Source: Chryseosolibacter histidinae | GTDB lineage: Bacteria; Bacteroidota; Bacteroidia; Cytophagales; Cyclobacteriaceae | Reading direction: 5' to 3' | Assembly (NCBI RefSeq): GCF_018598225.1 | Contig: NZ_JAHESF010000011.1 | Span: 124,001 to 188,000, forward strand | DNA length: 64,000 nt | In this document: positions 13,453 to 58,358 of the stretch, in pieces | Layout of the letters: each line of letters starts with the position of its first letter | Numbering within the stretch: the stretch's first letter is position 1 | The notes under the pieces: model-generated | The model's database searches: none | What the model saw: the letters and a program-made list of their open reading frames with translations, nothing else | What the model was told of the DNA's origin: nothing | Program-made: the position numbers and the translations under genes

Positions 13453-13466
13453 AGCTGCGAGCTGTG
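13453..13466. repeat. Two-unit heptamer array (AGCTGYG)
   Basis: AGCTGCG AGCTGTG starts 6 bases after the DUF58 stop codon. The same heptamer forms a longer array near 15.04 kb. Confidence 0.5.
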
Positions 13467-13550
13467 AGTCAGAATGAAACAAGAAAAGCCGATATATTAT
13501 ACCGGCTCTCAATTCCTTCATAGCGGGGTCACCAAAACTGGCACCTGCCT

Positions 13551-13578
13551 TTGCCTACTGCTTATTGTCAATTGCCTA
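13551..13578. repeat. Four-unit heptamer array (TTGCCTA type) overlapping the ferredoxin 3' end
   Basis: TTGCCTA CTGCTTA TTGTCAA TTGCCTA lie in exact 7-base register. The array runs into the ferredoxin gene and supplies its stop codon and its last residues. Confidence 0.6.
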
Positions 13579-13930
13579 CTTCTTCTTCCTGGTGAAGCCA
13601 CGCTTTTTTGGCAAGAAGCTCTTCTTTAGACTCTACGTAATCAGGATCCGGCACGCAGCAGTCAACGGGGCAAACAGCCGCACACTGTGGTTCTTCGTGA
13701 AAGCCGGTACACTCTGTACATTTTCCTGAAACGATATAATAGAATTCATTGGAAACCGGCGTCTGTGGCGATTTGCCATCAACGGCTGTTCCATCTTCCA
13801 GTTCAACTTTTTCCAATTTGGTGCCACCAGCCCAGTTCCATTCCCGGCCTCCCTCGTAGATCGCTGTGTTGGGGCATTCCGGCTCGCATGCACCGCAGTT
13901 GATGCATTCGTCCGTGATCATTATTGCCAT
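13568..13930 (-). CDS. 2[4Fe-4S] ferredoxin
   Basis: A 120-residue soluble electron carrier. Cluster 1 ligands are Cys9, Cys12, Cys15 and Cys19 in CINCGACEPECP. The second set is CTECTGFHEEPQCAAVCPVDCC, in which an 8-residue insertion separates the second and third cysteines, as in YfhL-type ferredoxins. The segment between the two halves (about residues 27-70) is an insertion with EWNWAGGTKLEK. It diverges from an acyl-CoA reductase across 83 bases, and a good promoter reads toward it. The C-terminal VGN and stop are encoded within a heptamer repeat array. Confidence 0.92.
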   Translation of the reverse strand: MAIMITDECINCGACEPECPNTAIYEGGREWNWAGGTKLEKVELEDGTAVDGKSPQTPVSNEFYYIVSGKCTECTGFHEEPQCAAVCPVDCCVPDPDYVESKEELLAKKAWLHQEEEVGN

Positions 13931-13958
13931 GCTTTTCCTACTTTTGAATCACTAAATA

Positions 13959-13990
13959 CAAAAATACTTTCAAAATGTCATCCTGCAAAA
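13959..13990 (-). promoter_or_regulatory. Bacteroidota-type promoter for the ferredoxin gene
   Basis: On the minus strand TTTTG (13990-13986) is followed after 19 bases by TATTTTTG (13966-13959), matching the TTG / TAnnTTTG consensus. The predicted start point leaves a leader of roughly 20 bases. Confidence 0.55.
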
Positions 13991-14013
13991 CACCACAGGC
14001 TGTTTAAAAGTTT

Positions 14014-15021
14014 ATGAATACAGAAGATAGAGTTGAAGCGTTCGAAAAACTGGGCAAATATCTCTCCGCAATCGATAAAGATGAGTTTAAAAACCTGGCC
14101 ATCAGCGCAGGAAATGAAAACTCGTGGTTTACGGAAGAAAATATCCGGTCTGCCTTCCATGGGCTCGCCCACTACCTCAGGCCCGGGCATCTCCGCGAAT
14201 GGGTCTCGCGTTATGAACTAACGGTCGTTAATCCAAAGACCGTGGCTGTGATCATGGCCGGTAACATTCCACTGGTAGGCTTTCATGATTTTCTCGCGGT
14301 GCTCATCAGCGGTCACAACATCCTCATCAAACCGAGCTCAAAAGATTCGGTGCTCCTCTCCCACCTTGCCAAAAAGCTTGGTGAGATCGAGCCACGTTTC
14401 GCCACACGCATCACCTTTGCCGAGCAGCTGAAGAACTTCGATGCGGTGATCGCCACGGGCAGTGATAATTCGGCGCGTTATTTTCACTATTACTTCGGCA
14501 AGTATCCCAACATCATCCGCAAGAACAGAACCTCGTGCGCTGTTCTCAATGGCCGTGAAACGCGCGAAGAATTGCAGGCCCTCGGCCGTGATGTGTTCAG
14601 CTATTTCGGATTGGGCTGCCGCAATGTTTCCAAGATCTTTGTACCCCTCCACTATGACCTGCCGCAGCTACTGAAAAGCTGGGAGCCTTTCCACGACATC
14701 ATCCATCATCACAAATACCACAACAACTACGATTACCAGAAGTCCATCCTGCTGGTGAACAGAACTTCCTTCCTTGATTCAGGCTTTGTCATGCTGCAGG
14801 AAAGCGAAAAGCTGGTATCGCCGATCGCCGTTGTCTATTATGAAACTTATGAAGATGAGGGCGCGCTGGCATTGAAGCTTACGGAGGCCAGGGAAAAGAT
14901 CCAGTGTATTGTAGGCCACACCACTCCGGGCGCAGTGCCGTTTGGTGAAGCGCAGGTCCCTGCCCTGTGGGACTATGCAGACCAGGTTGATACGTTGAAG
15001 TTTCTCAGTAGCTTGAACTAG
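14014..15021 (+). CDS. Acyl-CoA reductase (LuxC family)
   Basis: A 335-residue aldehyde-dehydrogenase-fold protein of the LuxC group. Recognisable parts are VAVIMAGNIPLVGFHDFLAVL (residues 77-97), ILIKPSSKDSVLL, VIATGSDNSARYFHYYFG (nucleotide-binding region) and FSYFGLGCRNVSKIFV, whose Cys202 is the likely acyl-accepting residue; RTSC (Cys175) is an alternative. The family reduces acyl-CoA or acyl-ACP to the aldehyde with NADPH. At about 335 residues it is shorter than LuxC (about 480), as usual in Bacteroidota. It is paired head to head with a ferredoxin; a functional link is likely but unproven. Confidence 0.85.
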   Translation: MNTEDRVEAFEKLGKYLSAIDKDEFKNLAISAGNENSWFTEENIRSAFHGLAHYLRPGHLREWVSRYELTVVNPKTVAVIMAGNIPLVGFHDFLAVLISGHNILIKPSSKDSVLLSHLAKKLGEIEPRFATRITFAEQLKNFDAVIATGSDNSARYFHYYFGKYPNIIRKNRTSCAVLNGRETREELQALGRDVFSYFGLGCRNVSKIFVPLHYDLPQLLKSWEPFHDIIHHHKYHNNYDYQKSILLVNRTSFLDSGFVMLQESEKLVSPIAVVYYETYEDEGALALKLTEAREKIQCIVGHTTPGAVPFGEAQVPALWDYADQVDTLKFLSSLN

Positions 15022-15035
15022 CTAAGGTAGCCACG

Positions 15036-15098
15036 AGCTGTGAGCTGCGAGCTGGGAGAAACTAAAATTTCTCGCGGCTCGCAGCTCATAACTCACAA
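15036..15098. repeat. Inverted pair of heptamer arrays between convergent genes
   Basis: AGCTGTG AGCTGCG AGCTGGG on one side faces CTCGCGG CTCGCAG CTCATAA CTCACAA on the other across about 12 bases. The arms pair at roughly 20 of 24 positions, giving a long hairpin that fills the 77-base gap between the acyl-CoA reductase stop and the stop of the giant gene. Confidence 0.7.
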
Positions 15099-18000
15099 CT
15101 AAGGCTTTTGTCCTCTCAGGATCTCCACCCAACCGTTCAGAGGTTCGGCGTTTCCAACTTTCAGCTGGTAGAAGTAAACGCCATCTACGGCACCTTCACC
15201 CTTCCAGTTGTTCTTGTATTTATCGGTGGTATAGACACTCTTGCCCCAGCGGCTGGTGATCACAAGCTTCACCGGGGTGTTGTCATCCTGCGGGAGGTTA
15301 CGGATGAAGAACACGTCGTTGATATCGTCATCATTAGGGGTAAAGATATTCGGGACAAAGATGTTCTTGTCCAGCTTCACACGCGCGATGTTCTCGATGC
15401 TACAGCCGAAGGAGTCTACCACCTGAACGATGTAACGGCCCGGAGGAAGGTTCCTGTAGATCTTCTCGTAACGCTGATCGTTGTTCAGGGTCACTTCTTC
15501 CCATTTGGTTTCGAAGAACGGCAATGCCGGAGAAGCCGCTGAGTCGAGCTCGATGCGTATATCGTAAGCCGTTGTTCCACCTTCGAAGTTGGTGAACTGG
15601 ATGGTTCCTGTCGGGATATCCGGATACGACTCCTGTGTTTTGGCAAATGGCGAGTAGAGCCTGTCAGGTGTGGTGAAATCTACCAGCGGAGACCTGATCT
15701 CGCAGAACGCCGAAGGACTGATCTGAACCATCTGGAGTTGGTATTCATCCGGCGTGGTCAGGAACGAATGATCGGCACCGGAAAGGAACAGGCTTCCCGT
15801 TGCAGGGATTGCTCCCGGCTGGATCTTTTCTACCACCACATTGGTGAACTTCCTGTACACCCATACTTCAAAAGCTCCACCCGGGTCGCCAACGATGTCT
15901 GTCAGTGCCAGTGAAAGATCGGTTCCGGAACATCTTGGCTCAGCCACAAACGACAGGGCGAATGCGCCACTGATCGTGATCGGCGCGCTCCGTGTAGGAC
16001 ATGCCGCTGCCACCGACTTCATATAAATAAAGTACTGGTTTCTCGAAAGGTCTTTGAATGTAACCGAGGGATTCTGATAGTTCTGGTAATCGGCATCTGC
16101 CGGTTCATTGAACTGGTCTGTGCTCAGCGCCACCTTGAAGGCTCCCGGATCGGTGATCGTCACGGTGATCGTTCCGCTGGTAGCGTTGTTAGAGCAGCTG
16201 GCATTGGTCTGCGTAATGGTGGCGTTGATAAAGCCAGGGAATGTAACATTCACGTTGATATCCTTTTCGCAGCCGAGGCCATCCCTCACCTTCAGGATAT
16301 ACGCACCGCCGGTGAGGTTTGTAAAGCTCGTGCCACTCTGGAAGTTCACACCACCATCGATGGAATACTGGTAACCGCTTCCCGAACCACCTGACGCGGC
16401 GATATCAGTGATGGCGCCGTCATTACCACTGCAGGTAGCTGCCGTGATGTTGAACGTAGCGTTGATGGCAGGATTGGCATCCTGGATCGTTATGCGTACC
16501 GATGCATAGCATGGATCGGCTGAGTTTCGTCTTACGCTGATCACTCTTTCAAAAGTCGGTGCCGGTCCTGCGGGAATACCGCTCACCAATCCTCCGGCAA
16601 CAAACGGCTTGAACGGATCGGTGATGCCTGCATCCAGTGACCACTCGAGAATATTTCCGGTCTCACCGGGCACATCCAGGATGATAGTACCTGTGGATGC
16701 TCCGGCGCAAACAGGGCCGATGATATTGCTGGCCAAAGGTGTACCGACAGTGCCCGACTGATCGATGGTAACCTGACCTGTTTTAGTACATGAAACGTCA
16801 CCGTACTCAATGGCGTAGGCATAAGTACCGATCGGCAATGCGGTGAACACAGAATCGTTGTATTGTGTACGTGCAATGGTCTGGTTGGTAGTGGATGTTC
16901 CGACAATGGAGATCTTGACCCCGGTATTATTCACAGCGGGCACAAATGGCCTAATGCGGAAGATAATGCTACCGTTAGACAACGTACACTGCGCCGGTGA
17001 GGGATCAGGAACAATGCGTACCGTTGAGCATAGACCTGTGCCTCCGCCGCCATTGCAGTTTGAAGGTTTGGAAATGGCAGTGGTAGCAGGCGAAGACGTA
17101 CATCCGTTGTTATCCCTAACAACGACGCTGTAAACTCCCAGCGCCAGGTTATTGAAGGTGCCGGAAGCCTGGAACGACGTGCCGTTGTTGATAGAGAACT
17201 GGTAAGGTGTGGCTCCACCGGCGGGGTTCGTGATGGTGATCACTCCGTCGCCACCGGTACAAGATTCATCTGTTTTATTGATCGATGCAGAAATGGTGAT
17301 GCCGTTGTTGATCGCGATCGTGAACACGGAAGATACGCACAATGATGCGTCACGCACGATGATCGCGTAATTGCCTGAAGCCAGATTCGTGAACACATTA
17401 CCACCCTGGAAGGTCGCGCCATTGTCTTTGGAGTAAGTATAAGGAGCCAGTCCTCCCGTAACACCTGTCACGGTGATGCTTCCATTGGTCTGGCCGTTAC
17501 AACTTGCGTCTACCTTCGCGATCACAGGCAGGATACCGCTGACCGTGCCGATATTAATGGTGACTGCGGAAGACAAGCAGCCATTGGCGTCCCTGATCAC
17601 AACCTTGTAAGTTCCTTGTGCCAACGGGCTGAATGTGCCGCTGCCCTGGAAGGTTGCACCATCATCGACGGAATAATCGTAAGGAGCTGTTCCACCCGTG
17701 GGGCTGGTGATCGTGATGGATCCGTTGGTGCCGGCGCAAGAAGATGCATCCGTCTTGTTGATGGTAGCCGAGATAGTGGCGCCGTTATTGACTGAAATGG
17801 TAGCCACCGAGGAGACACACAATGCAGCATCGCGTACAATGATCGCATAGTTGCCCGCAGCCAGGTTCGTGAATGAATTACCACCCTGGAAGGTCGCGCC
17901 ATTGTCTTTGGAGTACATATAAGGGGCCAGTCCTCCGGTAACACCCGTCACTGTAATGCTTCCGTTGCTCAGTCCGTTGCAGCCTGCATCCACTTTGGCG

Positions 18001-21000
18001 ATCACAGGCACTATGCCACTGACGGTGCCGATGTTAACAGTGGTTGAGGAAGACAAGCAGCCATTGGCATCCCTGATCACAACTTTATAGGTTCCCTGCG
18101 TGAGCGGGCTGAATGTGCCGCTGCCCTGGAAGGTTGCACCGTCATCGACGGAATAATCGTAAGGAGCTGTTCCGCCCGTGGGGCTGGTGATCGTGATGGA
18201 TCCGTTGGTGCCGGCGCAAGAAGATGCATCCGTCTTGTTGATCGTAGCTGAAATGGTGGCGCCGTTATTGACCGAAATGGTAGCCACAGACGAGACGCAC
18301 AATGCCGCATCACGCACAATGATCGCATAGCTGCCTGCTGCCAGGTTCGTAAATGAATTACCCCCCTGGAAGGTTGTACCGTTGTCTTTGGAGTACATAT
18401 AAGGTGCCAGTCCTCCGGTAACGCCCGTCACCGTAATGCTTCCGTTGCTCAGTCCGTTGCACCCCGCATCCACTTTGGCGATCACAGGCACTATTCCGCT
18501 GACGGTGCCCACGTTGGTTGTCACTGCCGAAGATGTACATCCGTTGCCATCTTTGATCACCACCTTATAGCTTCCCTGCGACACAGGGTTGAAAGTACCA
18601 CTGCCCTGGAAGGTTGCACCATCGTCGATCGAGTATTGATAAGGGGCCACGCCTCCCGTAGGACTGGTGACGGTGATAGATCCGTTGGTACCGGCGCAAG
18701 AAGACGCATCCGTCTTATTGATCGTGCCACTGATCGTGGTTCCGGCGTTGATGATGATAGAGCTTACGGAAGAAAGACAGCCATTGGCATCGCGCACCAC
18801 TATGGTATGGTTGGAGCCGGCCTGAAGTGAATTGAAGACATTCGACGTCTGGAATAACGCGCCGTTATCTTTTGAATATTGATAAGGTGTAACGCCGCCT
18901 GAAACCGCAGTGACTGTGATCACACCGTTGTCAACACCAGCACAGGCAGCATCTGTTTTAGCAATAGTAGGAATAATGGTCACGTTAGCCGTCACGGTCA
19001 CCGGCACCGGGTCGGAATCACATCCATTATTATCCCTGACAACCACCGTATAGTTTCCGGCGGCCAGTGCGGTGAAGGAGTTACCGACCTGGAAGCTTGT
19101 TCCGTTGTTGATGGAGTATCTGTAAGGAGCGGTACCACCGGTAACACCCGTGATGGTGATGCTTCCATTGTTCGTTCCATTACATGCTGCACTGCCGGTG
19201 TTGATGGTCGGAACAGGTTTGGATCCGATCGTTACAGTTACCACGGCTGTTGCATTGGCACATCCGCCTGTACCGGTTACCGTGTATCTGAAGTCATAGG
19301 TTCCTGCAGCAACGCCTGTGAAGTCTGCCACATTGCCGGTGATCACAGCACCGCTGCCATCGAGGTCTGCCCAGGCTCCACCTGTATCGGGGGTGCCATT
19401 GAGCGCTGCGAACAGATCAAATGAAGGATCGTCGCCGCAAGCTCTCGCAGTAGTATTGTCTAAGCCGGCATCGGGAGCGTTGGAAACGGCTACCGTTACC
19501 GTGGCGCTGGCGGTTCCACAACCTGCCACGGTGATGGTGTAAGTGAAGTCATAAGTTCCTGCTGTTACGCCGGTGAGATCGATCTCATCGCCGGTGATCG
19601 TACCGCCGCTGCTATCGTCGTCTGACCAGGTTCCACCCGGATCAGGTGAACCACCCAGGCTTGCGAACAGGTCGAAGTCAGTATCATTGTTACATGCTGT
19701 AACACTGTTGTTCGATCCTGCATCAGGTGTACTGTTGATGACGTTAATGGTGACAATGGCGGAAGCATTGGCACAAGGCGCTGTGCCGGTCACTGTATAC
19801 CGGAAACGATATGTTCCCGGCGTAACACCACTCAGATCGATGCTATTTCCGGTGATCACACCACCGCTGGCATCCAGATCAGTCCAGGTTCCTCCAGTGT
19901 CAGGTGAGCCACCCAGGTTGCCAAACAGGTCGAAGGCGGTTGCTGAAACACAAGCGGTAACATTGCCGGGGGTTCCGGGATCAGGAGCGATCGTAACGGT
20001 CACGGCGAGATCAGCTGTAGCATCAGCACATCCGGTTGCGCCAGGCACTGTGTATCTGAAATTATAAGTGCCTGCCGTCGTTACGCCGCTGAAGTTTGCC
20101 GCGTTACCCGTGATCACGGCGCCGCTGCCATCCAGATCCGCCCAGGTTCCGCCCGTATCAGGTGTGCCATTGAGGGCTGCCAGCAGATCAAAAGCCGTCT
20201 CCGAGCTACAAATATCTGCCGTGTTATCCGCACCTGCATCCGGAGGATTGGTCACCTGCACCGTAACGGTAGCGCTTGCTGTTCCGCAGCCCGTAACAGT
20301 AACTGTGTAAGTAAAATCATAGGTGCCGGCGGCAACGCCGGTCAGGTCGATGGTATTGCCAGTGATCACACCACCGCTGCCATCATCGTCAGACCAGGTA
20401 CCACCTGCATCCGGGGTTCCGCCCAGGCTGGTGAAAAGATTGAGCGCCGTGTTGGTGTTGCAAGCCGAAACAGTGTTGTCGGTGCCGGGGTCCGGTGTTC
20501 CGATGATCACGTTCAGGGTTACGATGGCCGTTGCGTTAGCACAAGGTCCGGTTCCTGTTACAGTATACCGGAACCTGTAATTGCCACTGGTAGTAACACC
20601 TGTAAGATTAACAGCGTTTCCGGTGATCACACCACCGCTGGCATCCAGATCGGCCCACGCGCCGCCAGCATCGGGTGTACCGCCGAGCTCGCTGAAAAGA
20701 TCAAACGCAGTTTCTGTATTGCAGACAGTAGCCCCACCGGGAGTTCCGGCATCAGGCGCTGCAGTAACATTGACGGTCACGATCGCAGTTGCGTTGGCAC
20801 AACCACCTGTACCCGTCACAGTATATTGAAAATCATAACTACCCGTTGCTACACCCGTGAAGTTGGCGTTGTTACCCGTGATCACAGCACCGCTGCCATC
20901 AAGATCAGTCCAGGTGCCGCCAGTGTCGGGGCTTCCGGTCAACAGGTTAAAGAGATTGAGCGCGGTCTGCGTACTGCAGGCAGTGGCAACACCTCCGCCT

Positions 21001-32000: not shown

Positions 32001-32036
32001 AAAGAGAGGCTGTCGAAAGGCGGCCTCTCTTTTTTG
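32001..32036 (+). terminator. Rho-independent terminator of smc
   Basis: AGAGAGGC and GCCTCTCT form an 8-bp stem around an 11-base loop and are followed by TTTTTT, 20 bases past the smc stop. Confidence 0.85.
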
Positions 32037-32038
32037 TT

Positions 32039-32067
32039 GCCGGTTGCCGGTTGCCGGTTGGCCGGTT
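32039..32067. repeat. Four-unit heptamer array (GCCGGTT)
   Basis: Three exact GCCGGTT units, a single extra G, then a fourth unit. The array begins directly after the T run of the smc terminator. Confidence 0.7.
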
Positions 32068-33746: not shown

Positions 33747-33797
33747 CATCGTGTAATCAGTGCTCGTCCGAAACCGGCAACTGGCAACCGGCAACTG
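33747..33797. repeat. Dispersed repeat ending in a heptamer array (AACCGGC / AACTGGC)
   Basis: AACCGGC AACTGGC AACCGGC AACTGG occupy 33771-33797, two bases before the stop of the permease gene. The array and the 24 bases before it (CATCGTGTA...) match 36443-36491 with only about eight differences. Confidence 0.7.
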
Positions 33798-33799
33798 GA

Positions 33800-36196
33800 C
33801 TATTCCACCTTCAAACTCCTGGCAGGATGAACCACCGCAGCTTTTATTGCCTGGAAGCTCACCGTTAACAGTGTAATGGTCAACGCGCCGGCGCTGGCAA
33901 TAGCGAAGATCCACCAACCCATCTCAGTTCTGTATTGATATTTGAGCAGCCACTGGCCGAGCAGATAATTGGATACCGGTATGGCTATCAGGCATGAGAT
34001 CAGCACCAGCCATACGAAGTCGCGCGACAACAGTTTCCACAGGCTGAATACGGAGGCTCCTAAAATTTTCCGGATGCCGATCTCGCGCGTGCGCTGTTCA
34101 GCGATAAAAGAGGCCAGGCCAAAAATGCCCAGGCAGCTGATAAAGATCGCCAGGGCTGTGAAAACGTTGGTAAGCTTACCGATCCGTTCTTCGCCGGCAA
34201 ATTTCAGCGCATACTCCTGCTCAGCAAACTTATAATCGAAGGGCGCGGAAGGATTATATTTTTTGAATACGTTACCGATCCTGGCGAGGGCATCATGCGC
34301 ACCTGCTGCGGGATCGATCTTTACATTGATAAAGTTCGCGTTGTCGTAGTTCAGGTAAAAGATCGTGGGCTCAACGGGATCATACGGTGAAGTCATGAGC
34401 ATATCGTCGATCACACCTATGATCTTCAGCTCATCACCTCCCCCACCCCACCACACGCTTTGACCGATCGGATTTTCAAACCCCATCTCTTTGGCAGCCG
34501 CCGCATTCAAAACCAGGCTCGTGGAAAGATCAGTTGAGAAGTCTTTGGAGAAATCCCTGCCTGCACTGAATTTCCAGCCTACGGTTTTTCCATATTCGTG
34601 TGTTACGGCCATGGTTGCAAACCTGGTCTCGCGGTTCGAATCATCGCCCGACCAAATAAAACCATTCCTCGTATCCCACACTTCTGTCGTAGGATTCTGC
34701 GATGCTGCAACGTCTATCACTACCCCTGTTTCAAGTAACTCGCTCCGGATCGACTCGTAGTGCTTATGCGTTTCGGGTGTCGACATCGGAATGATCAACA
34801 AGCCATCGCGGTTGTAACCTACAGGGCGATCTTTGGCAAACTGGATCTGGTTATGAACAACCATGGTTCCGATGATCAGCGATGTGGAAACCGTGAATTG
34901 CAAAATCACCAGCGCCTTCCGGGGAGTGGCAGCAAAACGTCCCAGGTGCACAGTTCCCCTCAGCACTTTGATAGGACGGAATGATGACAGGTATAATGCA
35001 GGATAACTTCCCGCGATCAGCCCCGTGAACAACGTAAAGCCCAATCCAGTAATCCAGAACCACGGCTCTGACCACATCAGGCTCATCCGCTTATCGGCCA
35101 ACTCGTTGAAGAATGGTAACGTGAATTCCACCAGGATCAACGCGAAAACAAAACCAATCGTGGCCAGCAGGATCGATTCGCTGAAAAACTGTTTCATCAG
35201 CTGGCTTCTGGCTGAGCCGACTACCTTGCGGATGCCCACCTCTTTGGCACGCTTCTCAGAACGGGCCGTGCTCAGGTTCATAAAATTGATGCAGGCCAGC
35301 AACAACACAAAACCAGCGATGGTCCCGAAGAACCAAACAAACTGAATACGCCCGCCGACGTTCACGCCATTTTTCCACTCAGAGTGCAGATGCCAGCGGC
35401 TCATGGGATACAGGAACACTTCGGGCTTCCTCATCTCCGCCAGCTTGGGGTCTGTGTGGTCGCGTACGATATTGCGGATCTTGTCATTGATGCTTGCAAT
35501 CTGGGCGTTGCCAGCAATTTCCACGTAGATCTCAAACGAGTTTCTTCCCCAATTCTGCTGGGCTTTCTGTGCCGATTCGTTGTTTGAAAGATGGAGCTGC
35601 CATGGCGCAACGAACGCGAGGTCCCTGAACCGTGAATTGTAAGGCAGGTCCTTGTAGACTCCCGTAACGATGGCCTCCATTTTATTATCGATCATCAGTG
35701 TTTTGCCGACTGGGTCCCTGTCGCTGAAAAGCGTTTTCGATAACGACTCTGAAAGCATGATCGACGAAAGGTTTTTCAGGCCGGCGGAGGATCCTCTCAA
35801 CATTTCGAAGGAAAGCATCTCGGGCGTTGCAGGCTCCATAAACCGTCCCTTCACCGTAAACTTCTGATCGGCGAACGCTAAAATGTGATCTGCCACTGGC
35901 GTTGCCAGAACAATGTGTTTGAATTCATCCTGGTACTTGTTTCCAAGCGCATCACGCAGTGGTATGGGCATTGACTCGCGGGTGCTGATCTCGTCGTTGC
36001 TGGTGGAATGCCGCATCACCTGGGCTATGTGTTCGTAATTCTTGTGATACCGGTTAAAATGCAATTCATCGTAGATCCACATGCCTATCAGCATCACCAC
36101 GCCTGCGCCGGCGGCGAGCCCAGTGATGTTGATAACAGAAAAGATTGTATTGTTCCGCAGGCCTCTCCAGGCGATTTTGAAATAATTGAAGATCAT
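33800..36196 (-). CDS. ABC transporter permease, MacB/FtsX type (no prefix domain)
   Basis: A 798-residue inner-membrane protein with two MacB-like periplasmic domains and two FtsX domains. The first membrane helix is at about 18-42. The motif AKEVGIRKVVGSARSQL follows the second helix, and its counterpart TREIGIRKILGASVFSL occurs near residue 700. The chain ends HPARSLKVE. Such proteins work as dimers with a separate ATPase and move or release substrates at the outer leaflet (lipoproteins, peptides, antimicrobials). No ATPase gene is nearby. The gene is monocistronic, with the stop codon touching a heptamer repeat. Confidence 0.88.
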   Translation of the reverse strand: MIFNYFKIAWRGLRNNTIFSVINITGLAAGAGVVMLIGMWIYDELHFNRYHKNYEHIAQVMRHSTSNDEISTRESMPIPLRDALGNKYQDEFKHIVLATPVADHILAFADQKFTVKGRFMEPATPEMLSFEMLRGSSAGLKNLSSIMLSESLSKTLFSDRDPVGKTLMIDNKMEAIVTGVYKDLPYNSRFRDLAFVAPWQLHLSNNESAQKAQQNWGRNSFEIYVEIAGNAQIASINDKIRNIVRDHTDPKLAEMRKPEVFLYPMSRWHLHSEWKNGVNVGGRIQFVWFFGTIAGFVLLLACINFMNLSTARSEKRAKEVGIRKVVGSARSQLMKQFFSESILLATIGFVFALILVEFTLPFFNELADKRMSLMWSEPWFWITGLGFTLFTGLIAGSYPALYLSSFRPIKVLRGTVHLGRFAATPRKALVILQFTVSTSLIIGTMVVHNQIQFAKDRPVGYNRDGLLIIPMSTPETHKHYESIRSELLETGVVIDVAASQNPTTEVWDTRNGFIWSGDDSNRETRFATMAVTHEYGKTVGWKFSAGRDFSKDFSTDLSTSLVLNAAAAKEMGFENPIGQSVWWGGGGDELKIIGVIDDMLMTSPYDPVEPTIFYLNYDNANFINVKIDPAAGAHDALARIGNVFKKYNPSAPFDYKFAEQEYALKFAGEERIGKLTNVFTALAIFISCLGIFGLASFIAEQRTREIGIRKILGASVFSLWKLLSRDFVWLVLISCLIAIPVSNYLLGQWLLKYQYRTEMGWWIFAIASAGALTITLLTVSFQAIKAAVVHPARSLKVE

Positions 36197-36361
36197 CGTC
36201 GGTCTTAAGATATAGATAGGTATAATTTACCGGTTTCGGTGCGGGCACTATGTCAAGATTGGTGCCACATTAAAAGCGGTTGAATCTGCGCCCTATTCAA
36301 CTTGAGCCTATACCTGGCGTTCGCCTGCGGATAATATCGTGCGCACGCGACCAAAATGGTT

Positions 36362-36389
36362 ACCAGTTGCCAGTTGCCGGTAGCCAGTT
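36362..36389. repeat. Four-unit heptamer array (GCCAGTT / GCCGGTA)
   Basis: ACCAGTT GCCAGTT GCCGGTA GCCAGTT in exact 7-base register, about 165 bases upstream of the permease start and inverted relative to the array at 36468-36492. Confidence 0.65.
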
Positions 36390-36442
36390 GGTGCGGGTGC
36401 TGCGTCATTTGACGTGTTACACATCACGTTGATATGCAGACG

Positions 36443-36492
36443 CATCGTGTAGTCCGCGCACGTCTTAAACCGGCAACAGGCAACCGGCAACC
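36443..36492. repeat. Second copy of the CATCGTGTA + AACCGGC dispersed repeat
   Basis: CATCGTGTAGTCCGCGCACG leads into AACCGGC AACAGGC AACCGGC AACC (36468-36492). It ends three bases before the stop of the SRAP gene. Together with the inverted array at 36362 it can fold into a stem around about 80 bases. Confidence 0.7.
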
Positions 36493-36495
36493 ACC

Positions 36496-37365
36496 TCAAA
36501 GCTCTGCCCTCACAACCCCATCATACTCATGGAACCGAAGCGCATCCCTCACATTCGTCTCCACTTTCTTCGAGGTGATCAGCTTCGATACGGTGTGCGC
36601 CTTCAGCAGATCGTTCTGTACGGGCTGACATAACGCCAGCACATCATCTTTCGACAGATTGCGACTGAGCCAGTCCTTCTCATACTCCCGGGGAATGACC
36701 ACCGGCATACGCTTCTTCATGTTGTGAACGTACTCCATCATCGGGTTGGCTTTGGTGGTGAGCACAGAATACGAATAATAGTATTGCCCTGTGCTCTGAT
36801 CTTTCCAGCGACTGTAGATGCCTGCCAGGGAGAGCAGTGAACGTTCGCGATGGGAGATAAAGTACGGGATCTTGTTGTTGCCATTGGGATCGAGCCATCG
36901 CCACTCATAAAATCCGGAGATGGGGATCAGGCACCGCTGCCCGTTTTTTGCTGCCTGCATGTAGGCTGGCTTCTCGTACATTTCTTCAGCGATACAGTTC
37001 AGCGTCTTCTGCCGCAGTGCGTAGGCTGTTGTCCTGTCGGCGATGTTGAAGGGGATCAGTCCCCACCGGAACAGCTTGAACGTTTCGGGCGCCCCGGCGG
37101 TGATCACGGGAGCAGGCAGGTATTCGTAGCCGTTCTCGTGAAATCTTTCATAGGCATTGCCCGTAAAGCTTTTCAGCGATCGTTCACACCACTTCAGCTC
37201 TTCGGACTCCTCTTTTGTGAAGGGGCTCGTTTTCACATCCTTCGACATCAGGATGCTGAACCGTTCTTTGATGATCTCCAGCTCTTCTGTAATGGACTCG
37301 AACGAAGCCGCATAATGCTCCATCAGGTCGTCATAGGTTGCAAAGAGGGATTTGTGATAGCACAT
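36496..37365 (-). CDS. SRAP domain protein (HMCES/YedK type, DNA-protein crosslink at abasic sites)
   Basis: A 289-residue protein beginning Met-Cys, where Cys2 becomes the N-terminal nucleophile after Met removal, which fixes the start codon. Other active-site residues are visible: Asn123 (LNCIAEE), Glu154 in SGFYEWRW and His214 in EYVHNMKKRMPVVI, the Bacteroidota form of HxRMP. The WGLIPF motif is at 101-106. An insertion of about 45 residues after the N-terminus is common in this phylum. SRAP proteins form a thiazolidine crosslink with abasic sites in single-stranded DNA and so shield them. A TAGTTTTG lies immediately upstream on the minus strand but would give an almost leaderless transcript. 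Confidence 0.9.
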   Translation of the reverse strand: MCYHKSLFATYDDLMEHYAASFESITEELEIIKERFSILMSKDVKTSPFTKEESEELKWCERSLKSFTGNAYERFHENGYEYLPAPVITAGAPETFKLFRWGLIPFNIADRTTAYALRQKTLNCIAEEMYEKPAYMQAAKNGQRCLIPISGFYEWRWLDPNGNNKIPYFISHRERSLLSLAGIYSRWKDQSTGQYYYSYSVLTTKANPMMEYVHNMKKRMPVVIPREYEKDWLSRNLSKDDVLALCQPVQNDLLKAHTVSKLITSKKVETNVRDALRFHEYDGVVRAEL

Positions 37366-37641: not shown

Positions 37642-37784
37642 CCCTACACAGATCTTTTAGCGATCTTGTGCAGACTTTATAAAGACCTTATACAGTCCTT
37701 ATAGAGACCTTATACAGACATTCATCCCATCTTCATTCAGTATTCATCCCATCTTCATTCAGTATTCATCCCATCTTCATCCGG
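37642..37784. repeat. Thirteen-unit 11-bp tandem array
   Basis: In strict 11-base register: CCCTACACAGA, TCTTTTAGCGA, TCTTGTGCAGA, CTTTATAAAGA, CCTTATACAGT, CCTTATAGAGA, CCTTATACAGA, then CATTCATCCCA and TCTTCATTCAG types alternating three times (equivalent to three 22-bp units). It lies about 390 bases upstream of the SusC start. Confidence 0.75.
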
Positions 37785-37998: not shown

Positions 37999-38065
37999 GG
38001 TACGAATTACGAGGTACGTAGCTCCAGATCGTAGACAGTGCGAAGCACAAACCGTACCTCGTACC
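37999..38065. repeat. Inverted heptamer array (GGTACGA type) upstream of the SusC promoter
   Basis: GGTACGA ATTACGA GGTACGT faces CCGTACC TCGTACC across about 32 bases; TACGAGGTACG on one side is nearly the complement of CGTACCTCGTA on the other. The remaining bases up to the promoter hold nothing recognisable. Confidence 0.6.
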
Positions 38066-46592: not shown

Positions 46593-46620
46593 CTCCTGAC
46601 TCCTTACTCCTGGCTCCTGA
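46593..46620. repeat. Four-unit heptamer array (CTCCTGA)
   Basis: CTCCTGA CTCCTTA CTCCTGG CTCCTGA in exact register, ending eight bases before the stop of the prefix-domain permease gene on the other strand. A related array lies at 56394-56421. Confidence 0.7.
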
Positions 46621-46628
46621 CTTCTTTT

Positions 46629-49301
46629 TTACTCATGCCTCAAACTCCTGGAAGGATTCGACAACGCCACCTTGATGATCTGTGAGCTCACGGTAACAAT
46701 GGTGATCGACAGGATCAGCACAATGGGAAGGATAAAAACTGTCCAGCTTAACGCGATCTTATAGGCGTAGGTAGCGAGCCAGTTCTGCATGAAGTAATAG
46801 GCGATCGGGATCGACAGCACAATGGCGACGGCGACAAGCTTTACAAAATCGAGCGAGAGCATGGAAAGTATGTTGGCTACCGACGCGCCCAGTACTTTTC
46901 GGATCCCGATCTCCTTCGTGCGCTGCACCGCGGCGTATGATGACAACCCGATAAGACCAAGGCACGAGACGATGATGGCGAGCACTGTAAAAATGTTCAC
47001 CACTTTGGCAAAACGATCCTCATCGCTGTACTGTTGCTTGTACCGGTCCTCGATAAAGAAATATTCGAAGATGTTATCGGGAAAAAATTCTTTGAAGGCC
47101 GACTCGATGGCGGGGATCAGCTGTTGATAGTCATTGGTGCTCAGTCGTATGGACGTAGCGTTCCTTCCGTACGCAGGTATAAAAAACAAGGGTTCCATCG
47201 GACTGCGAAGCGATTCCTGGTGAAAGTCACCGACCACACCCACCACGTTCCAGTCGCGCCCCCAGAAAGTCATCTGCCGCCCAACGATGTCCTGCGGGCG
47301 TTCGAAGCCCAGCAGGGCCGTTGCGTTACGGTTCACAACCACCGTGTTGATCTTGTCCCAGTTAACGTTGTGGTCACTGGCCAGAAACTTCCTGCCAGCC
47401 AGGAGCGGAATTTTATACGTATCGAAAAAGTCATAGTCGCATTGGAATTGGCTCATGGTATAGTGCTCCGTTCCGGCACCATCTTTCAACCGGATGTCGA
47501 ACGTCCTTCCCAACCTCCTGCCTGGCAGCGGTCCCGACGTAGCGGCAGAGGTAACGCCGTCGAGCTGCGTAAGGCGGTCCTTGAAACTTTCTACCCTGCT
47601 GATGAAAGTGGAGTCATAGGGCGTGCGCTCAGGGTTGCGCACCACCAGGATCTGGCCAAGGTCGATACCAAGGTCCGTTTCATTCATGAATTTTATCTGC
47701 TTTGAGACAATAAGGGTGCTGGTGATCAACGCCACGGAAGCGGTGAACTGGAACACCACCAGCGCCTTTCGCATCAGGTTGCCTGATGAAGACCGTATGA
47801 ACCTACCCTTCAACACCGTAACGGGCTGATAAGAGGACAATACGAAAGCGGGGTAAAATCCAGATAACAGGATGCCCGCTATGAGCACCGTGCATAATAC
47901 AGCGATGGTGAAGGCATCGGCCTCTCCAATCACCTTCCACAACGAGAGCTCTGTGCCTACCAACTGATTGAATGATGTTTGGAGGAGCTGCGCCAGGAGT
48001 AACGCGATGAGGAAGGCAATGACGCTGAGCAGCATCGATTCGAAAATGAATTGTTTGATCAACTGGCTTTTCAATGCACCCATTACTTTCCGCAGGCCTA
48101 CTTCTTTGGCCCGTTCGAGCGCCCGTGACGTGGTCAGGTTGATGTAGTTCACCCAGGCGATGAAGAGAATAAAAATGGCCACCACCAGCATAGCCCAAAC
48201 AGCTTTGCCACTGGCCTTTTTGGCGATGTCGTATTCATAGTCGGAGTACAGGTGCGCCTCCCGCAACGGCTGCAGGTAGAATTTTTCAACACTGCCCGAA
48301 ACTTTGTCGCCCTTGAAGTAACGTTCGCTGAACGCGGGGAATTTGCTTTCAAGCTTTTTGTAATCGACGCCGGGCTTCAGCACCAGGTAATGCCGCATAT
48401 CAGACCACTGCCAGCTGTCGTCGGCGCCTGTGTTATCGGGACGGATCAGCGTGGCGTATGACACCAGCACGTTGAACTGGATGTGCGAGTTCGCAGGCAC
48501 ATCACCACAAATGCCTGTTACCGTGTAAGGCTGCGGATCGAGGCCCCAGTAGATGGTCTTTCCAATGAGTGACGCGTAATCGCCATCGTTCACTTCAAAG
48601 TATTTTTTTGCCACCTTTTCCGTGAGCACAACACTGTAACGGTCTTTCAGTGCGGTTGCCCGCTGACCTGCCAGCAGCGGAAACGAAAAGACCGACAAAA
48701 AATGTTCGTCCACAAAATGACAGACATCGCCCCTGAACAGCTTGTCGTTGATCTTGACATTCATTTCACCACCCGGCATCAATCGCGTATGCTCCTCGAT
48801 CTCTTCATAGTCTTTGTGCATGGTTCCCCCGATGGTGGGATACATGATGGTGCCGTGCTGGATCAGCTTGCCGTTCTGGAACCGGTCGTTGGTGATGCGA
48901 TAGGTGCGCTCGAACTTATCGTTGAATTTGTCATAGCTGAGCTCAAAGCTCACGAACTGGAAGATCAGCAGGCATGACGCCAGGCCGATGGAGAGCCCTA
49001 TGATGTTGATGGCCGAGAATGTTTTGTTCTTCAGCACATTTCTGTAAGCGATGATGAGGTAATTGGTGAACATAACCGTATCGATTAGTTGAGTTGAAAA
49101 CTTGTTCCTGAAAATGATCTCCGGCCGGAAAAAGCGCAGCGTGTTCAGGAAGAGTCGCCTGCGCGCGATCTTCTCCCCCGCCTCTTCCACGTCGCACTCA
49201 AACTGCTGGATCAGGTCACCCTCGATGCCTTCATACAAGGCGGGCGGACAGAACCACGCAAGCAAATGGAAAGGCCAGGCCGGTATCTTTACATTATTCA
49301 T
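46629..49301 (-). CDS. Permease prefix domain 2 transporter, MacB/FtsX type (second copy)
   Basis: An 890-residue membrane protein. Residues 1-75 form the cytoplasmic prefix domain (LLAWFCPPALYEGIEGDLIQ), followed by a first membrane helix (about 95-112), a MacB-like periplasmic domain, and two FtsX units with AKEVGLRKVMGALKSQL and TKEIGIRKVLGASVANI. It ends NPSRSLRHE. The gene overlaps its upstream neighbour by 8 bases, indicating coupled translation. That neighbour is a paralogue and is preceded by a PadR regulator. No ATPase is encoded nearby, so the partner must come from elsewhere. Substrate unknown. Confidence 0.87.
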   Translation of the reverse strand: MNNVKIPAWPFHLLAWFCPPALYEGIEGDLIQQFECDVEEAGEKIARRRLFLNTLRFFRPEIIFRNKFSTQLIDTVMFTNYLIIAYRNVLKNKTFSAINIIGLSIGLASCLLIFQFVSFELSYDKFNDKFERTYRITNDRFQNGKLIQHGTIMYPTIGGTMHKDYEEIEEHTRLMPGGEMNVKINDKLFRGDVCHFVDEHFLSVFSFPLLAGQRATALKDRYSVVLTEKVAKKYFEVNDGDYASLIGKTIYWGLDPQPYTVTGICGDVPANSHIQFNVLVSYATLIRPDNTGADDSWQWSDMRHYLVLKPGVDYKKLESKFPAFSERYFKGDKVSGSVEKFYLQPLREAHLYSDYEYDIAKKASGKAVWAMLVVAIFILFIAWVNYINLTTSRALERAKEVGLRKVMGALKSQLIKQFIFESMLLSVIAFLIALLLAQLLQTSFNQLVGTELSLWKVIGEADAFTIAVLCTVLIAGILLSGFYPAFVLSSYQPVTVLKGRFIRSSSGNLMRKALVVFQFTASVALITSTLIVSKQIKFMNETDLGIDLGQILVVRNPERTPYDSTFISRVESFKDRLTQLDGVTSAATSGPLPGRRLGRTFDIRLKDGAGTEHYTMSQFQCDYDFFDTYKIPLLAGRKFLASDHNVNWDKINTVVVNRNATALLGFERPQDIVGRQMTFWGRDWNVVGVVGDFHQESLRSPMEPLFFIPAYGRNATSIRLSTNDYQQLIPAIESAFKEFFPDNIFEYFFIEDRYKQQYSDEDRFAKVVNIFTVLAIIVSCLGLIGLSSYAAVQRTKEIGIRKVLGASVANILSMLSLDFVKLVAVAIVLSIPIAYYFMQNWLATYAYKIALSWTVFILPIVLILSITIVTVSSQIIKVALSNPSRSLRHE

Positions 49302-54541: not shown

Positions 54542-54547
54542 TGCCCA

Positions 54548-54623: not shown

Positions 54624-54775
54624 GCGGACAACCAGCCATTCAGTGGCAATTCAACCGGCAATTCTCTCTGCTCATCGTTAACCTGTCTTAAGCCAAAAAC
54701 TTTTTAATCCTTACACAGCTGCTTCCGACCGGCAGTAACATACTTTTGTCATTGGCGATTAAGCGTCCTTTGTAT

Positions 54776-54841: not shown

Positions 54842-54882
54842 CCATTGATCCTGTTAAGAAAATCCCACTAGTTCTTTTACCC

Positions 54883-56307: not shown

Positions 56308-56312
56308 TCTTC

Positions 56313-56345
56313 AAGGATGACATCCTTTTAAAGGATGTCATCCTT
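56313..56345 (+). other. Nested palindrome after beta-helix copy 2
   Basis: AAGGATGACATCCTTT and its exact complement lie 16 + 16 bases around a single T, and each arm is itself partly self-complementary. It starts six bases past the stop. There is no strong T run, but it may still end or stabilise the transcript. Confidence 0.6.
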
Positions 56346-56393
56346 TAAAATTAGCAGCCGAGCGGAGGTGTAGCTTCGAATCTGCACTACGCT

Positions 56394-56421
56394 CTTCTGG
56401 CTTTCGACTCCTGGCTCCTGA
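56394..56421. repeat. Four-unit heptamer array (CTCCTGG / CTCCTGA type)
   Basis: CTTCTGG CTTTCGA CTCCTGG CTCCTGA in exact register, then CTTATTT. Same family as the array at 46593. Confidence 0.6.
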
Positions 56422-56683
56422 CTTATTTTTAACCGGCTTACGTACCAATTCCAAAAAAAAACAGAAAGTACTCCTTCACTTGTGCAAAGCACGCCGCCGG
56501 ATGGCGGGATGTGTCACCACTCATCGGTTGAGTCGATTATTAAACTCTAACCCGGATTAACAATTCTCCGTTTTTCCTCCTTTATTTTTCAATACCGCCG
56601 ATTTCTTACATGCCTGACTCACCATGGCAATGTAAACTCCTGGTGAAGATCCATTCCGGTTTTTTTGTAACCGAAATCAAACA

Positions 56684-56749
56684 TTCACCTAACGCTATGC
56701 CACATGTCATAAGAGATCATTCGTCGAATAACCGCTCGTCTGCTGTTGC
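56684..56749 (+). other. Leader segment shared with beta-helix copy 2
   Basis: TTCACCTAAC at the left and GTTGC at the right, again 66 bases apart; the middle has diverged. The rest of the 513-base gap holds the palindrome and heptamer array listed separately and a run of nine A near 56453, with no gene. Confidence 0.35.
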
Positions 56750-56820
56750 ATAATCTTTTAAAAAATTTTTTAACCCATTGCCGGAGCACTTTACGGGTAA
56801 AGCTTCCGGTGTTAAACTCA

Positions 56821-58269
56821 ATGTCACGCATGATAAAAACTCAAAATTTTTTCACCGTACTCAAAAGACTGACGCTGACACTTTCCATCATTTTCGTTTT
56901 AGCTCAATGTTCGGATGAACAGATCCTCGACGACACCGTCACCGCTGTTCCTGAAGCTGAAACAGACCCCGCTACTACTGCCGCCGCCACGGCCACCTGC
57001 TCTTCGTGCACGTACATCGTGCCTGCCACTGCCAACGTGATCGACGGCAAGGCACTCGGATTGAAACCCGGAGCCATCATCGGCCTGAATGCAGCTTACA
57101 AATACAAAAATCTTTTGTTCCGCAACATCGTGGGCACGGCTTCGCAGCCCATCATCATCAAGAACTGCGGCGGAACCGCTTATATCACTGCCACCGGATT
57201 GTCTTACGGCATCAAAACGGAGAACAGCAAGTACTTCCGCATTACCGGCGGCGATGTGAGCAAATCATATGGCATCAAAGTGAACGGCAGTCACATCGGC
57301 ATAACGCTCGACAAGCTCAGCACGAACTTTGAAGTAGACCACGTGCAGGTGAGCAACGTTGGATTCGCCGGCATCATGGCGAAGACCGATCCTTCCTGCG
57401 ACAATGCTACCATTCGCGGCAACTTCGTGATGAACGATATCTCCCTTCACGACAATTACGTTTTCGATACCGGTGGTGAGGGCTTCTATGTTGGCAATTC
57501 GTTCTATGAAGACGGTGCAAAAACAAGCTGCGGCTCGCGGCTCCCGCACGAGATCCATGGTGTAAAGATCTATAACAACATTGTGAAGAACTCGGGATGG
57601 GAAGGCATTCAGCTTGGATGTGCCACCCAGGGCGCACAGGTTTACAACAACAGCATTGAAAACTATGGCACGGCAAACCGCGAAGCCCAGAACAACGGCA
57701 TGCAGATCGGTGCCGGAACCGGCGGACTGTGCTACAACAATTTTATCAAGAACGGCCCCGGAAATGGTCTCATCGTGATGGGCCTTGGTGACAACGTCAT
57801 TCACAACAACATCATCGTTGGCGCAGGTGGCTCAGGGATCTTCTGTGATGAGCGTTATACTCCGGGCCCCGGCTTCAAGTTCATCAACAATACCATTATC
57901 AATCCTAAAGTTGACGGTATCAGGCTTTATGCCGAGCTCGTTCCCATGAATGTTATCATCAACAACATCATTGTGAACCCGGGCAGCTACTCAACTTACA
58001 AGGCGCCCCGCACCGGAAACGACGCTTATGTGTACAAGCTGAGCAAGGATGTGAGGGTACAGATGTCGAACAACTACTTCACAAGAAGCATTACGGCACT
58101 TAAGTTTGTGAATGCGGGCGCTTACAACTATCGCCTGGCCAGCGGCTCGCCTGTGATCAACAAAGGCAAAAGCTTTTCAACCTACACGACCCAAAGCATT
58201 CTGCAAGACTTCTATAAGCAACAGCGCCTCAAAGGTTCAGCCTACGACATCGGCGCAAGCGAATATTAA
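56821..58269 (+). CDS. Right-handed parallel beta-helix lipoprotein, copy 3
   Basis: About 482 residues. Lipoprotein signal (LSIIFVLAQC, Cys30), cap CSSCTYIVPATANVIDG with LGLKPGAIIGL, then the same beta-helix rungs as copy 2: KNLLFRNIVGTASQPIIIKN, AKTDPSCDNATIRGN, VFDTGGEGFYVGNSFY, GIFCDERYTPGPGFKFINN, ending YDIGASEY. In the shared VHDTGGE motif the His is Phe here, which matters if that His is catalytic. The upstream frame is open from a TTG, but the ATG pair at this start gives the signal peptide. It closes the tandem cluster and is followed by a terminator. Confidence 0.85.
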   Translation: MSRMIKTQNFFTVLKRLTLTLSIIFVLAQCSDEQILDDTVTAVPEAETDPATTAAATATCSSCTYIVPATANVIDGKALGLKPGAIIGLNAAYKYKNLLFRNIVGTASQPIIIKNCGGTAYITATGLSYGIKTENSKYFRITGGDVSKSYGIKVNGSHIGITLDKLSTNFEVDHVQVSNVGFAGIMAKTDPSCDNATIRGNFVMNDISLHDNYVFDTGGEGFYVGNSFYEDGAKTSCGSRLPHEIHGVKIYNNIVKNSGWEGIQLGCATQGAQVYNNSIENYGTANREAQNNGMQIGAGTGGLCYNNFIKNGPGNGLIVMGLGDNVIHNNIIVGAGGSGIFCDERYTPGPGFKFINNTIINPKVDGIRLYAELVPMNVIINNIIVNPGSYSTYKAPRTGNDAYVYKLSKDVRVQMSNNYFTRSITALKFVNAGAYNYRLASGSPVINKGKSFSTYTTQSILQDFYKQQRLKGSAYDIGASEY

Positions 58270-58293
58270 TTCGTACCTACCTACCTGAAAAAA

Positions 58294-58325
58294 GAAAACC
58301 TGGCTTGAATAGTCAGGTTTTTTGT
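58294..58325 (+). terminator. Rho-independent terminator after beta-helix copy 3
   Basis: AAAACCTG and CAGGTTTT form an 8-bp stem with an 11-base loop and a T run, 24 bases past the stop. Confidence 0.85.
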
Positions 58326-58330
58326 TTTAG

Positions 58331-58358
58331 TCCACGGTCGACGGGCCACGGTCCACGG
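58331..58358. repeat. Four-unit heptamer array (TCCACGG)
   Basis: TCCACGG TCGACGG GCCACGG TCCACGG in exact register, directly after the terminator of the beta-helix cluster. Confidence 0.65.

Follow-up and report, generated by a model that had tools for sequence, protein, structure and literature searches.

The window analysed here, i.e. the whole stretch of 64,000 nucleotides, comes from the 8,041,252-base draft genome (122 contigs) of Chryseosolibacter histidinae (G000:C21:124001-188000), and its intergenic regions contain short tandem arrays of 7-bp units. All the arrays listed in a sequence-only reading of the window can be read in its sequence, and eight runs (15035, 15071, 32036, 33772, 36359, 36468, 46593 and 58330) exceed a single run threshold applied uniformly to all periods. 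Four further arrays (13453, 13551, 37999 and 56394), being shorter or more degenerate, lie under the threshold; they were accepted by eye because their units match genome-wide families (F1 to F6 denote the six main ones, see below). Three inverted pairs had been overlooked: 15035/15071, 36359/36468 and 37999/38053. In the list below, strand refers to the reading strand of the RGT-type (gene-side) arm. The following features were found:

13453-13469, plus (strand of the RGT-type arm): AGCTGYG half-array of about 2.4 units, 6 bp past the stop of a DUF58 gene (12538-13446, plus); under the run threshold
13551-13580, minus: degenerate TGCCTAC array; it overlaps a minus-strand open reading frame (ORF; 13568-13921) of low support (score 25) at the 3' end of the latter; read by eye
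15035-15098, unstranded: AGCTGYG inverted pair (arms 15035-15058 and 15071-15098, 12 bp apart) flanked by convergent genes, with the plus-strand stop (15021) at 13 bp and the minus-strand stop (15099) at 0 bp
32036-32060, plus: F2 (GCCRGTT) arm that starts at the terminator T-run downstream of an SMC gene
33772-33798, minus: F2 arm, 1 bp past the stop of a MacB/FtsX gene (33800-36196, minus)
36359-36492, unstranded: complete F2 element whose arms (36359-36388 and 36468-36492) are separated by a 79-bp spacer; an SRAP gene (36496-37365, minus) has its stop 3 bp from the right arm; predicted RNA fold -64.9 kcal/mol (with 6-bp flanks, a value without shuffle control)
37999-38065, unstranded: inverted pair of degenerate F3 (GGTACGA) arms, at about 37999-38018 and 38053-38065, between divergent genes; read by eye, under the threshold
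46593-46625, minus: F5 (CTYCTGR/CTCCTTA) arm with almost five units; a MacB/FtsX gene (46629-49238, minus) has its stop 3 bp away
56394-56424, minus: degenerate F5 arm, 87 bp past the stop at 56307 and beyond an 18-bp-unit hairpin (56313-56350), with the ACY-type unit on the gene strand, opposite to the usual polarity
58330-58358, plus: F1 (GTCCACG) arm of four units, directly after the terminator T-run of a beta-helix gene (56830-58269, plus)

Heptamer excess in intergenic DNA

The intergenic DNA of the window (29 segments, 6325 bp) gave eight period-7 runs, compared to a mean of 0.33 and a maximum of 2 in 60 Markov shuffles; periods 5, 6 and 8 gave no run, and periods 4 and 9-12 gave one or two. 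The counts presented below as genome-wide were obtained from a 1.19 Mb sample, that is, 15% of the 8.04 Mb genome (contigs C21, C111, C89, C27 and C26). Genes were called with a home-made dicodon method of simple design, which yielded 940 genes (84-89% of each contig being coding) and left 757 intergenic segments with a total of 157,161 bp; five sets of Markov shuffles served as the null. In this sample, 179 strict intergenic runs of period 7 were detected versus 1.4 in shuffles, together with 1 run of period 6 and 4 runs of period 8 (0-6 for each of the periods 3-6 and 8-13). An excess of 7-bp over 6- and 8-bp periodicity, which had been proposed as a check on the arrays, is hence present in the wider sample. 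Runs of period 14 (145) and 21 (53) are both expected given period 7. Coding DNA (1.03 Mb, 6.6 times the intergenic set) contained 11 period-7 runs. In addition, 14 intergenic runs of period 15 were counted (0 in shuffles), possibly corresponding to arms that combine 7- and 8-bp steps. A laxer scan returned 341 arrays, which by scaling would extrapolate to about 2300 arrays in the whole genome. The heptamer excess of this genome is real, and it is better organised than the sequence-only reading saw.

Families and two-armed anatomy

Using author-set unit consensus sequences, 265 of the 341 arrays can be assigned to six families, mostly four or five units long:

F1, unit ACYRTGG: 71 arrays, 51 of them with four units
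F2, unit ACYGGCA: 57 arrays, 33 with four units
F3, unit CGTACYT: 47 arrays, 33 with four units
F4, unit ACYTTAA: 39 arrays, 16 with five units
F5, unit CTYCTGR: 30 arrays, 23 with five units
F6, unit ACYGATT: 21 arrays, 8 with four and 6 with five units

The 76 remaining arrays include TGCCTAC, AGCTGYG, GAGATNT, TTAGAAT and TTGACAA types, plus some that mix or extend F1-F6.

Arrays of the same family face each other with a single polarity: where plus denotes the strand carrying the ACY-type unit, 74 of the 78 same-family couples at most 200 bp apart are of the -+ type, the others being -- (2), ++ (2) and +- (0). Since the naming of orientations was fixed from the unit sequences before couples were counted, the agreement in polarity across the six families is a result. 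Couples within the same distance but with different or no family label comprised 44 -+, 19 ++, 10 -- and 4 +-. A family-blind comparison of adjacent arrays gave 83 inverted, 6 direct and 56 unlike neighbours, with the RGT-type arm on the left in 82 of the 83 inverted ones. Under a looser rule (any family, -+, at most 200 bp) 204 of the 341 arrays are paired. Spacers measure 65-153 bp in F2 and 2-36 bp in F3. Two further ideas were rejected: (i) a universal ACY/RGT trinucleotide, which suits F1-F6 and fails in the pairs of G002, a same-genus relative (2 left-RGT, 3 ties, 1 left-ACY); and (ii) autonomous copies, looked for by taking same-family arms without a partner at distances of 0.2-6 kb, which gave 13 couples (-+ in 8).

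Within the arms, units vary according to their position. The F1 variant GTCGAY occupies unit 2 or 3 counted from the outside and is rare elsewhere; 10 of 24 F1 pairs have exactly one such unit per arm, at differing positions in 7 of these 10. Unit identity at lag 7 is 75-82%, not clearly above that at lag 14 or 21. In fact, identity is higher at lag 21 in F1 (0.885 vs 0.793) and F3 (0.872 vs 0.817), where unit 1 resembles unit 4 more than its own neighbours; in F2 and F4-F6 both lags are similar, and adjacent units are clearly the most alike in no family.

These observations bear on simple-sequence slippage, according to which a polymerase preferring 7-nt units would generate arrays locally everywhere, those between genes surviving. 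Heptamers do dominate long simple repeats in many genomes, and an idea of polymerase contact has been published (as quoted in passages of PMC4679880 and PMC4692102). Nevertheless, slippage does not predict variants tied to positions, nor neighbouring units that are no more alike than distant ones; near-identical adjacent units of freely varying number, its hallmark, were not observed, 4-5 units dominating in F1-F5. Likewise, the same few units recur at hundreds of sites, and the arrays pair inversely with one polarity. As a whole, slippage is highly unlikely. The sequence-only reading had favoured a common mechanism over common descent: a common process is supported, but within each family arrays look related by descent, as suggested by the prevalence of 4-5 units, the position-specific variants and the likeness of units 1 and 4 (F1 and F3).

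An inner box, [AG]GTG[TC], occurs in 22 of 42 half-loops of F1 and 18 of 38 of F2, compared to about 5 expected, while its counts in F4 (3/8 vs 1.3) and G002 (6/38 vs 3.4) are within the shuffle range. A palindromic tetramer per unit (4-bp stem plus 3-nt loop, hence 7) was rejected as the cause of unit length, as such tetramers are not enriched in clusters of G000 (14/30 vs 12.3), G002 (11/32 vs 11.1) or other-phylum contigs (4/21 vs 6.2). Small perfect hairpins (e.g. CACAATCGCTTCGCGATTGTG) were seen by eye between units of TGCCTAC arms at C26:91302-91473, there in both arms, and at C26:113281-113433.

Gene ends and relatives

Out of the 313 arrays with a neighbouring gene 3' end, 125 lie no more than 5 bp from that end; random placement within the same intergenic regions yields a mean of 27.6 and a maximum of 41 in 200 sets, so that the enrichment at gene 3' ends claimed from the window stands. 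Because present intergenic length includes the element, placement was retested with whole elements for which 20 bp or more of slack was available: the stop is no more than 8 bp away in 26 of 38 co-directional elements (null 4.2, maximum 12 in 5000) and in 5 of 8 convergent ones (null 2.0, maximum 6). Total slack is below 20 bp in 23 of the 31 convergent elements. The RGT strand is the gene strand in 97 of the 99 F1-F6 arrays within 5 bp of a 3' end; for arrays outside these families the agreement is 14 to 12, strand labels meaning little there. Arrays are present in 62 of the 130 intergenic regions between convergent genes, in 118 of the 468 tandem ones and in 18 of the 155 divergent ones. TAG is commoner at array-stop contacts (-15 to +8 bp; 56/144) than among the remaining stops (169/791), partly because the arm can supply the AG. 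The window itself is less regular than this genome-wide result: it had been stated that most of its arrays lie near a stop codon or a terminator, which is true of about half for the stop (at most 15 bp away) and of 32036 and 58330 for the terminator T-run, but the pair at 37999 lies in a divergent region and 87 bp separate the arm at 56394 from the closest stop.

A position at gene 3' ends would also be expected of RNA hairpins under selection to terminate transcription or to structure mRNA ends. When gene ends followed by 60 bp or more are considered, canonical terminators are less frequent where an array adjoins the stop (14/134) than where no array is present (78/393; p = 0.012), and ends with a more distant array give 16/89; the space occupied by the arrays may account for part of this difference. 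T-rich tails are found in F1 (15/71) and F5 (10/30), but they are few in F2 (6/57), F3 (3/47), F6 (1/21) and F4 (0/39). Canonical terminators, present at 95 of 706 array-free gene ends, start at a median of 29 nt past the stop, whereas many arrays start at 0-5 nt; the elements therefore adjoin the stop more closely than terminators do. In terms of pairing, arms of the same element match no better than arms of different elements, and mostly worse: complementarity within elements was at or below 93-98% of permutations in F2, F3, F4 and F6, while F1 arms paired slightly above chance (the observed value was reached in 84 of 1000 permutations). Loop complementarity in F1, F2 and F4 was at or below 98-100% of permutations, and on the gene strand of co-directional elements G.U was not favoured over A.C (59 vs 74, p = 0.22). 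Thus, no selection on RNA pairing is visible. The worse-than-permuted pairing is likely due to elements having two different ends, as oriented alignments suggest; a bias against perfect palindromes would be a less likely cause. Selected RNA hairpins are, altogether, a quite unlikely explanation.

The strict F2 pattern was found in none of 58 relatives, two same-genus ones included. The congener G002 (median identity 69% over 114 filtered reciprocal best hits; filter, a minimum of 35% identity across more than 60% of the protein) has arrays of its own: in 1.0 Mb, 100 strict runs of period 7 were counted versus 20 and 22 of periods 6 and 8, together with 162 arrays, mainly of other units (44 within one letter of an F1-F6 unit). 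These arrays are likewise drawn to gene ends, since 46 of 142 lie within 5 bp of a 3' end (9.8 by random placement, maximum 18). Its intergenic runs include 20 of period 8 and 6 of period 6. Among the 16 period-8 arrays listed, a stop lies 3 bp away or less in 7 cases, and some resemble inverted pairs by eye. On G002:C1, octamer families (GTGTTCAT and ATTGGCAC types) and a hexamer family (AGCCAT) are partly stop-abutting and partly paired, for instance at 763890-763929, 313684-313821 and 799123-799302. The 7-bp length is, in consequence, dominant and not universal: the proposal of one unit length with unrelated sequences describes G000 well but does not extend to G002, where a good part of the 8- and 6-bp arrays are stop-adjacent, which also speaks against slippage. 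A dedicated templated polymerase or repair process writing the repeats, also suggested from the window, would suit unrelated sequences of common length; nevertheless, unit length differs in part of the G002 arrays and nothing found points to a dedicated polymerase, no candidate gene having been searched for, and this explanation is extremely improbable. Thirteen other relatives (one same-genus; 20-40 kb each, about 392 kb) gave 8 period-7 runs versus 5 and 2 of periods 6 and 8, too few to judge.

Junctions of G000 and G002 were compared without an outgroup, and differences between them carry no direction of gain or loss. Of 76 syntenic junctions, 15 hold arrays in G000 alone and 8 in G002 alone, while 3 are occupied in both genomes; as about 2.6 shared ones are expected, array positions are not conserved in the compared sample. 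Several junctions differ by a whole element: (i) C26:73586-73727, with 142 bp and an F2 element in G000, measures 0 bp (TGA/TCA) in G002; (ii) C26:168977, with 275 bp and an F4 element, corresponds to -4 in G002; (iii) in the reverse case, -4 in G000 corresponds to 192 bp with GCTTGCA-type arrays in G002; and (iv) at C26:113281 a classical terminator of G002 takes the place of the element, a replacement that would suit terminator hairpins. Lenient reading by eye also revealed several convergent junctions with different families (C26:78716, F1 vs TTAGGCA; C26:97324, F3 vs an octamer; C26:124082, F6 vs a CCTGGCT-like array); these are again near expectation because convergent junctions are so often occupied. 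Proteins remain intact: of the 19 orthologs with an array no more than 5 bp away, 17 have 8 or fewer unaligned residues at the C-terminus on each side (the two exceptions show 0/25 and 44/2), the median for 84 array-free orthologs being 1 residue.

The same data serve to weigh binding-site arrays for abundant DNA-binding proteins (nucleoid proteins or global regulators), placed as inverted pairs at gene ends, in which 3 x 7 = 21 bp would bring sites to the same face of the helix. The higher identity at lag 21 in F1 and F3 (not clearly in F2 and F4-F6) and the lack of any sign of selection for pairing at the RNA level agree with such sites, and a comparable interpretation, as possible sites of integration host factor (IHF)/HU type, was given by the Geobacter authors to inverted pairs of 3-5 units (in passages of PMC2700814). 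On the other hand, a dozen or so unrelated units coexist in one genome, positions are shared with G002 no more than by chance, and arrays attach to stop codons, not promoters; protein sites are accordingly an unlikely explanation.

Beyond the relatives, an exact 26-mer (CTYCTGACTCCTGGCTCCTGACTTCT) was found in 26 stretches from Acidobacteria, Desulfobacteraceae, Latescibacterota, cyanobacteria and others. The contigs holding it (172 kb) contain 62 period-7 runs versus 1 and 2 at periods 6 and 8; neighbouring arrays are inverted in 10 cases, direct in 0 and unlike in 24, and for 7 of 33 arrays an ORF 3' end is no more than 5 bp away (a count without a null). Since these contigs were chosen for holding an array, they indicate that the architecture recurs, not how frequently. 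The F5 pattern occurs in 14 of 295 other Bacteroidota genomes and its reversed control in 9, both being absent from viral contigs. Descent of F5 across phyla, considered because of the 26-mer, was rejected, as the reversed control is nearly as widespread within Bacteroidota and the query itself determined the order of variants; units can be identical without being related by descent, and common descent is not claimed. Such recurrence of many unit sequences is, for its part, a point in favour of slippage.

Other repeats were observed in the window: (i) at 56313-56350, downstream of a stop codon, the 18-bp-unit near-palindrome AAGGATGACATCCTTTTAAAGGATGTCATCCTTT, probably a terminator; (ii) at 37671-37782, between divergent genes, 11-bp and 22-bp tandem repeats (CAGACCTTATA; ATTCATCCCATCTTCATTCAGT) with 100% matches; (iii) at 11701-11846, near the gene 10565-11665, degenerate 9-10-bp tandem repeats (CAGGATTTA/GGATTTACA); and (iv) at 17261-18725, about three 480-bp repeats (83% matches) within a predicted protein of some 4100 residues. 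A Por secretion tail domain match reaches 25.9 bits, slightly under the curated cut-off of 27, and is in keeping with Bacteroidota. At gathering scores, Rfam gave no match in the window.

Interpretation and comparison with known systems

The 7-bp arrays are best read as the arms of dispersed imperfect-palindrome elements that would work in the manner of repetitive extragenic palindromes (REP) and bacterial interspersed mosaic elements (BIME), with fast turnover at gene ends; a probability of roughly 0.58 is given to this reading. Each element would measure about 50-240 bp and consist of two facing arms, usually with 4-5 short units each, around a mostly unique spacer. It would lie at a gene 3' junction, directly past the stop codon or, sometimes, past a terminator, mainly between convergent or co-directional genes. 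Elements would spread by copying (transposition or conversion) and be retained at gene ends through harmlessness or help in ending transcription, the repetition of units being then a property of the arm and not the outcome of local slippage at each site. What is observed is that arrays form families with a common polarity, pair with each other, keep a narrow number of units and sit at stop codons, that the congener carries different main families, and that whole elements are present or absent next to intact proteins. The mobile element envisaged in the sequence-only reading fits best, but no mobiliser was identified. As no GTAG or CGTC tag was seen in the arms, their units are not hairpins and a link to RAYT (REP-associated transposase, PF01797, Y1) is missing, it is appropriate to say that the elements work like REPs, not that they are REPs.

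Several points weigh against these two-armed elements. Genes were called by a home-made method, and arrays were assigned to families by an author-set consensus. Moreover, all 26 array-bearing syntenic junctions are on contig C26 and one sufficiently close relative was compared; 137 of the 341 arrays have no detected partner within 200 bp; and neither a target duplication nor a mobiliser was found. RAYT was rejected as the mobiliser: G000 has four matches, with arrays beside one of them. Nor does PF01797 track the array load, as 15 of 16 relatives have matches and the relative G015, with 28, shows no period-7 run in a 40 kb sample. Spacers are mostly dissimilar within families (49 loops gave 12 weak alignments across elements, several of them nested arrays), which is odd for a copied element. 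A common body beneath different arms was rejected too, all 10 F2-body profile hits above the best decoy being flanked by F2 arms only. Finally, at C26:167141-167420 two families are interleaved, not nested (F4-left, F2-left, body, F4-right, F2-right); its neighbour at C26:168976-169123 has a similar body (79% over 52 nt) with F4 arms only.

With this reading, the arrays gain an anatomy, with inverted arms, polarity and a narrow number of units; they gain an address, namely the stop codon, and also an evolutionary behaviour, as whole elements are present or absent in congeners. A statistical oddity becomes a testable object that offers a handle on the unexplained abundance of heptamers in bacteria. 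A wider and rather doubtful proposal is that this abundance might, for the most part, be the trace left by a single widespread class of small elements with two arms, with units of 6-8 bp (mostly 7) and almost any sequence, installed exactly at stop codons, whose families are swapped between related species. If general, the elements would account for part of the intergenic DNA of such genomes and would show that gene ends can be rebuilt without harm to proteins.

Intergenic tandem heptamers are known from cyanobacteria as short tandemly repeated repetitive (STRR) sequences. REPs close to stop codons have been reported to influence ribosomes. Mycobacterial interspersed repetitive units (MIRU) are small repeats at stop/start junctions that leave proteins undamaged; the elements described here resemble them in this harmless placement, but MIRU units are longer and non-palindromic. 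The attC sites of integrons have GTTRRRY/RYYYAAC cores, are recognised by the integrase and form cassette arrays; GTTGCCR of F2 does not fit the GTTRRRY core.

REPs of the GTAG and CGTC superfamilies are, as set out in passages of PMC3733652, small dispersed intergenic repeats, often arranged as opposite-orientation dimers 20-100 bp apart; they lie mainly between convergent or co-directional genes, downstream of coding regions, their termini often supply a TAG stop, some organisms have several types and some types are species-specific. The G000 elements were found to be alike in two respects, namely their dispersed location near gene 3' ends with depletion between divergent genes, and their inverted dimers. 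In contrast, their arms are tandem 7-bp arrays (also 8- and 6-bp in G002) instead of the short hairpins described for REP (PMC3733652, same passages). No GTAG/CGTC tag was seen in the arm consensus when inspected by eye, without a separate motif search.

Published work ranks heptamers first in abundance among the intergenic tandem repeats of prokaryotes, without a clear indication of what they do (passages of PMC6344855). Tandem TAACTGA heptamers have been described in Beggiatoaceae, cyanobacteria and five Bacteroidetes (passages of PMC4679880), so that heptamer repeats were already on record in Bacteroidota, where the sequence-only reading knew of no comparable system. They too are intergenic tandem heptamers; the same passages locate most of them immediately 5' of start codons in the Beggiatoaceae genome examined, with 169 direct sets and one indirect set, whereas the present arrays favour the stop-codon side and inverted pairs. 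GGGNATC heptamers of Xanthomonas and Nostoc, mostly of four units in Xanthomonas, lie on the sense strand within 50 bp of the stop, some overlapping it, with one example of an inverted pair in a convergent region (passages of PMC4692102). They differ in that one G-rich, quadruplex-forming unit type was studied per organism, and the passages do not describe two-armed elements. A further parallel is Geobacter metallireducens, whose classes 1-3 are inverted pairs of 3-5 short tandem units, with 8-24 pairs per class, not found in G. sulfurreducens and read as possible IHF/HU sites (passages of PMC2700814). According to those passages, class 3 has five heptamers MTYCTGA, close to CTYCTGR of F5 (five units in 23/30), and the class 1 octamers parallel part of the G002 arrays; the G000 elements, for their part, have far more copies, many families and attachment to stop codons. 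No description of paired, stop-abutting, multi-family elements of this kind in Bacteroidota was found in searches of open-licence papers. Heptamer abundance, stop-side placement and some inverted pairs are already published, and the elements of this genome are a variant of a known, unexplained phenomenon.

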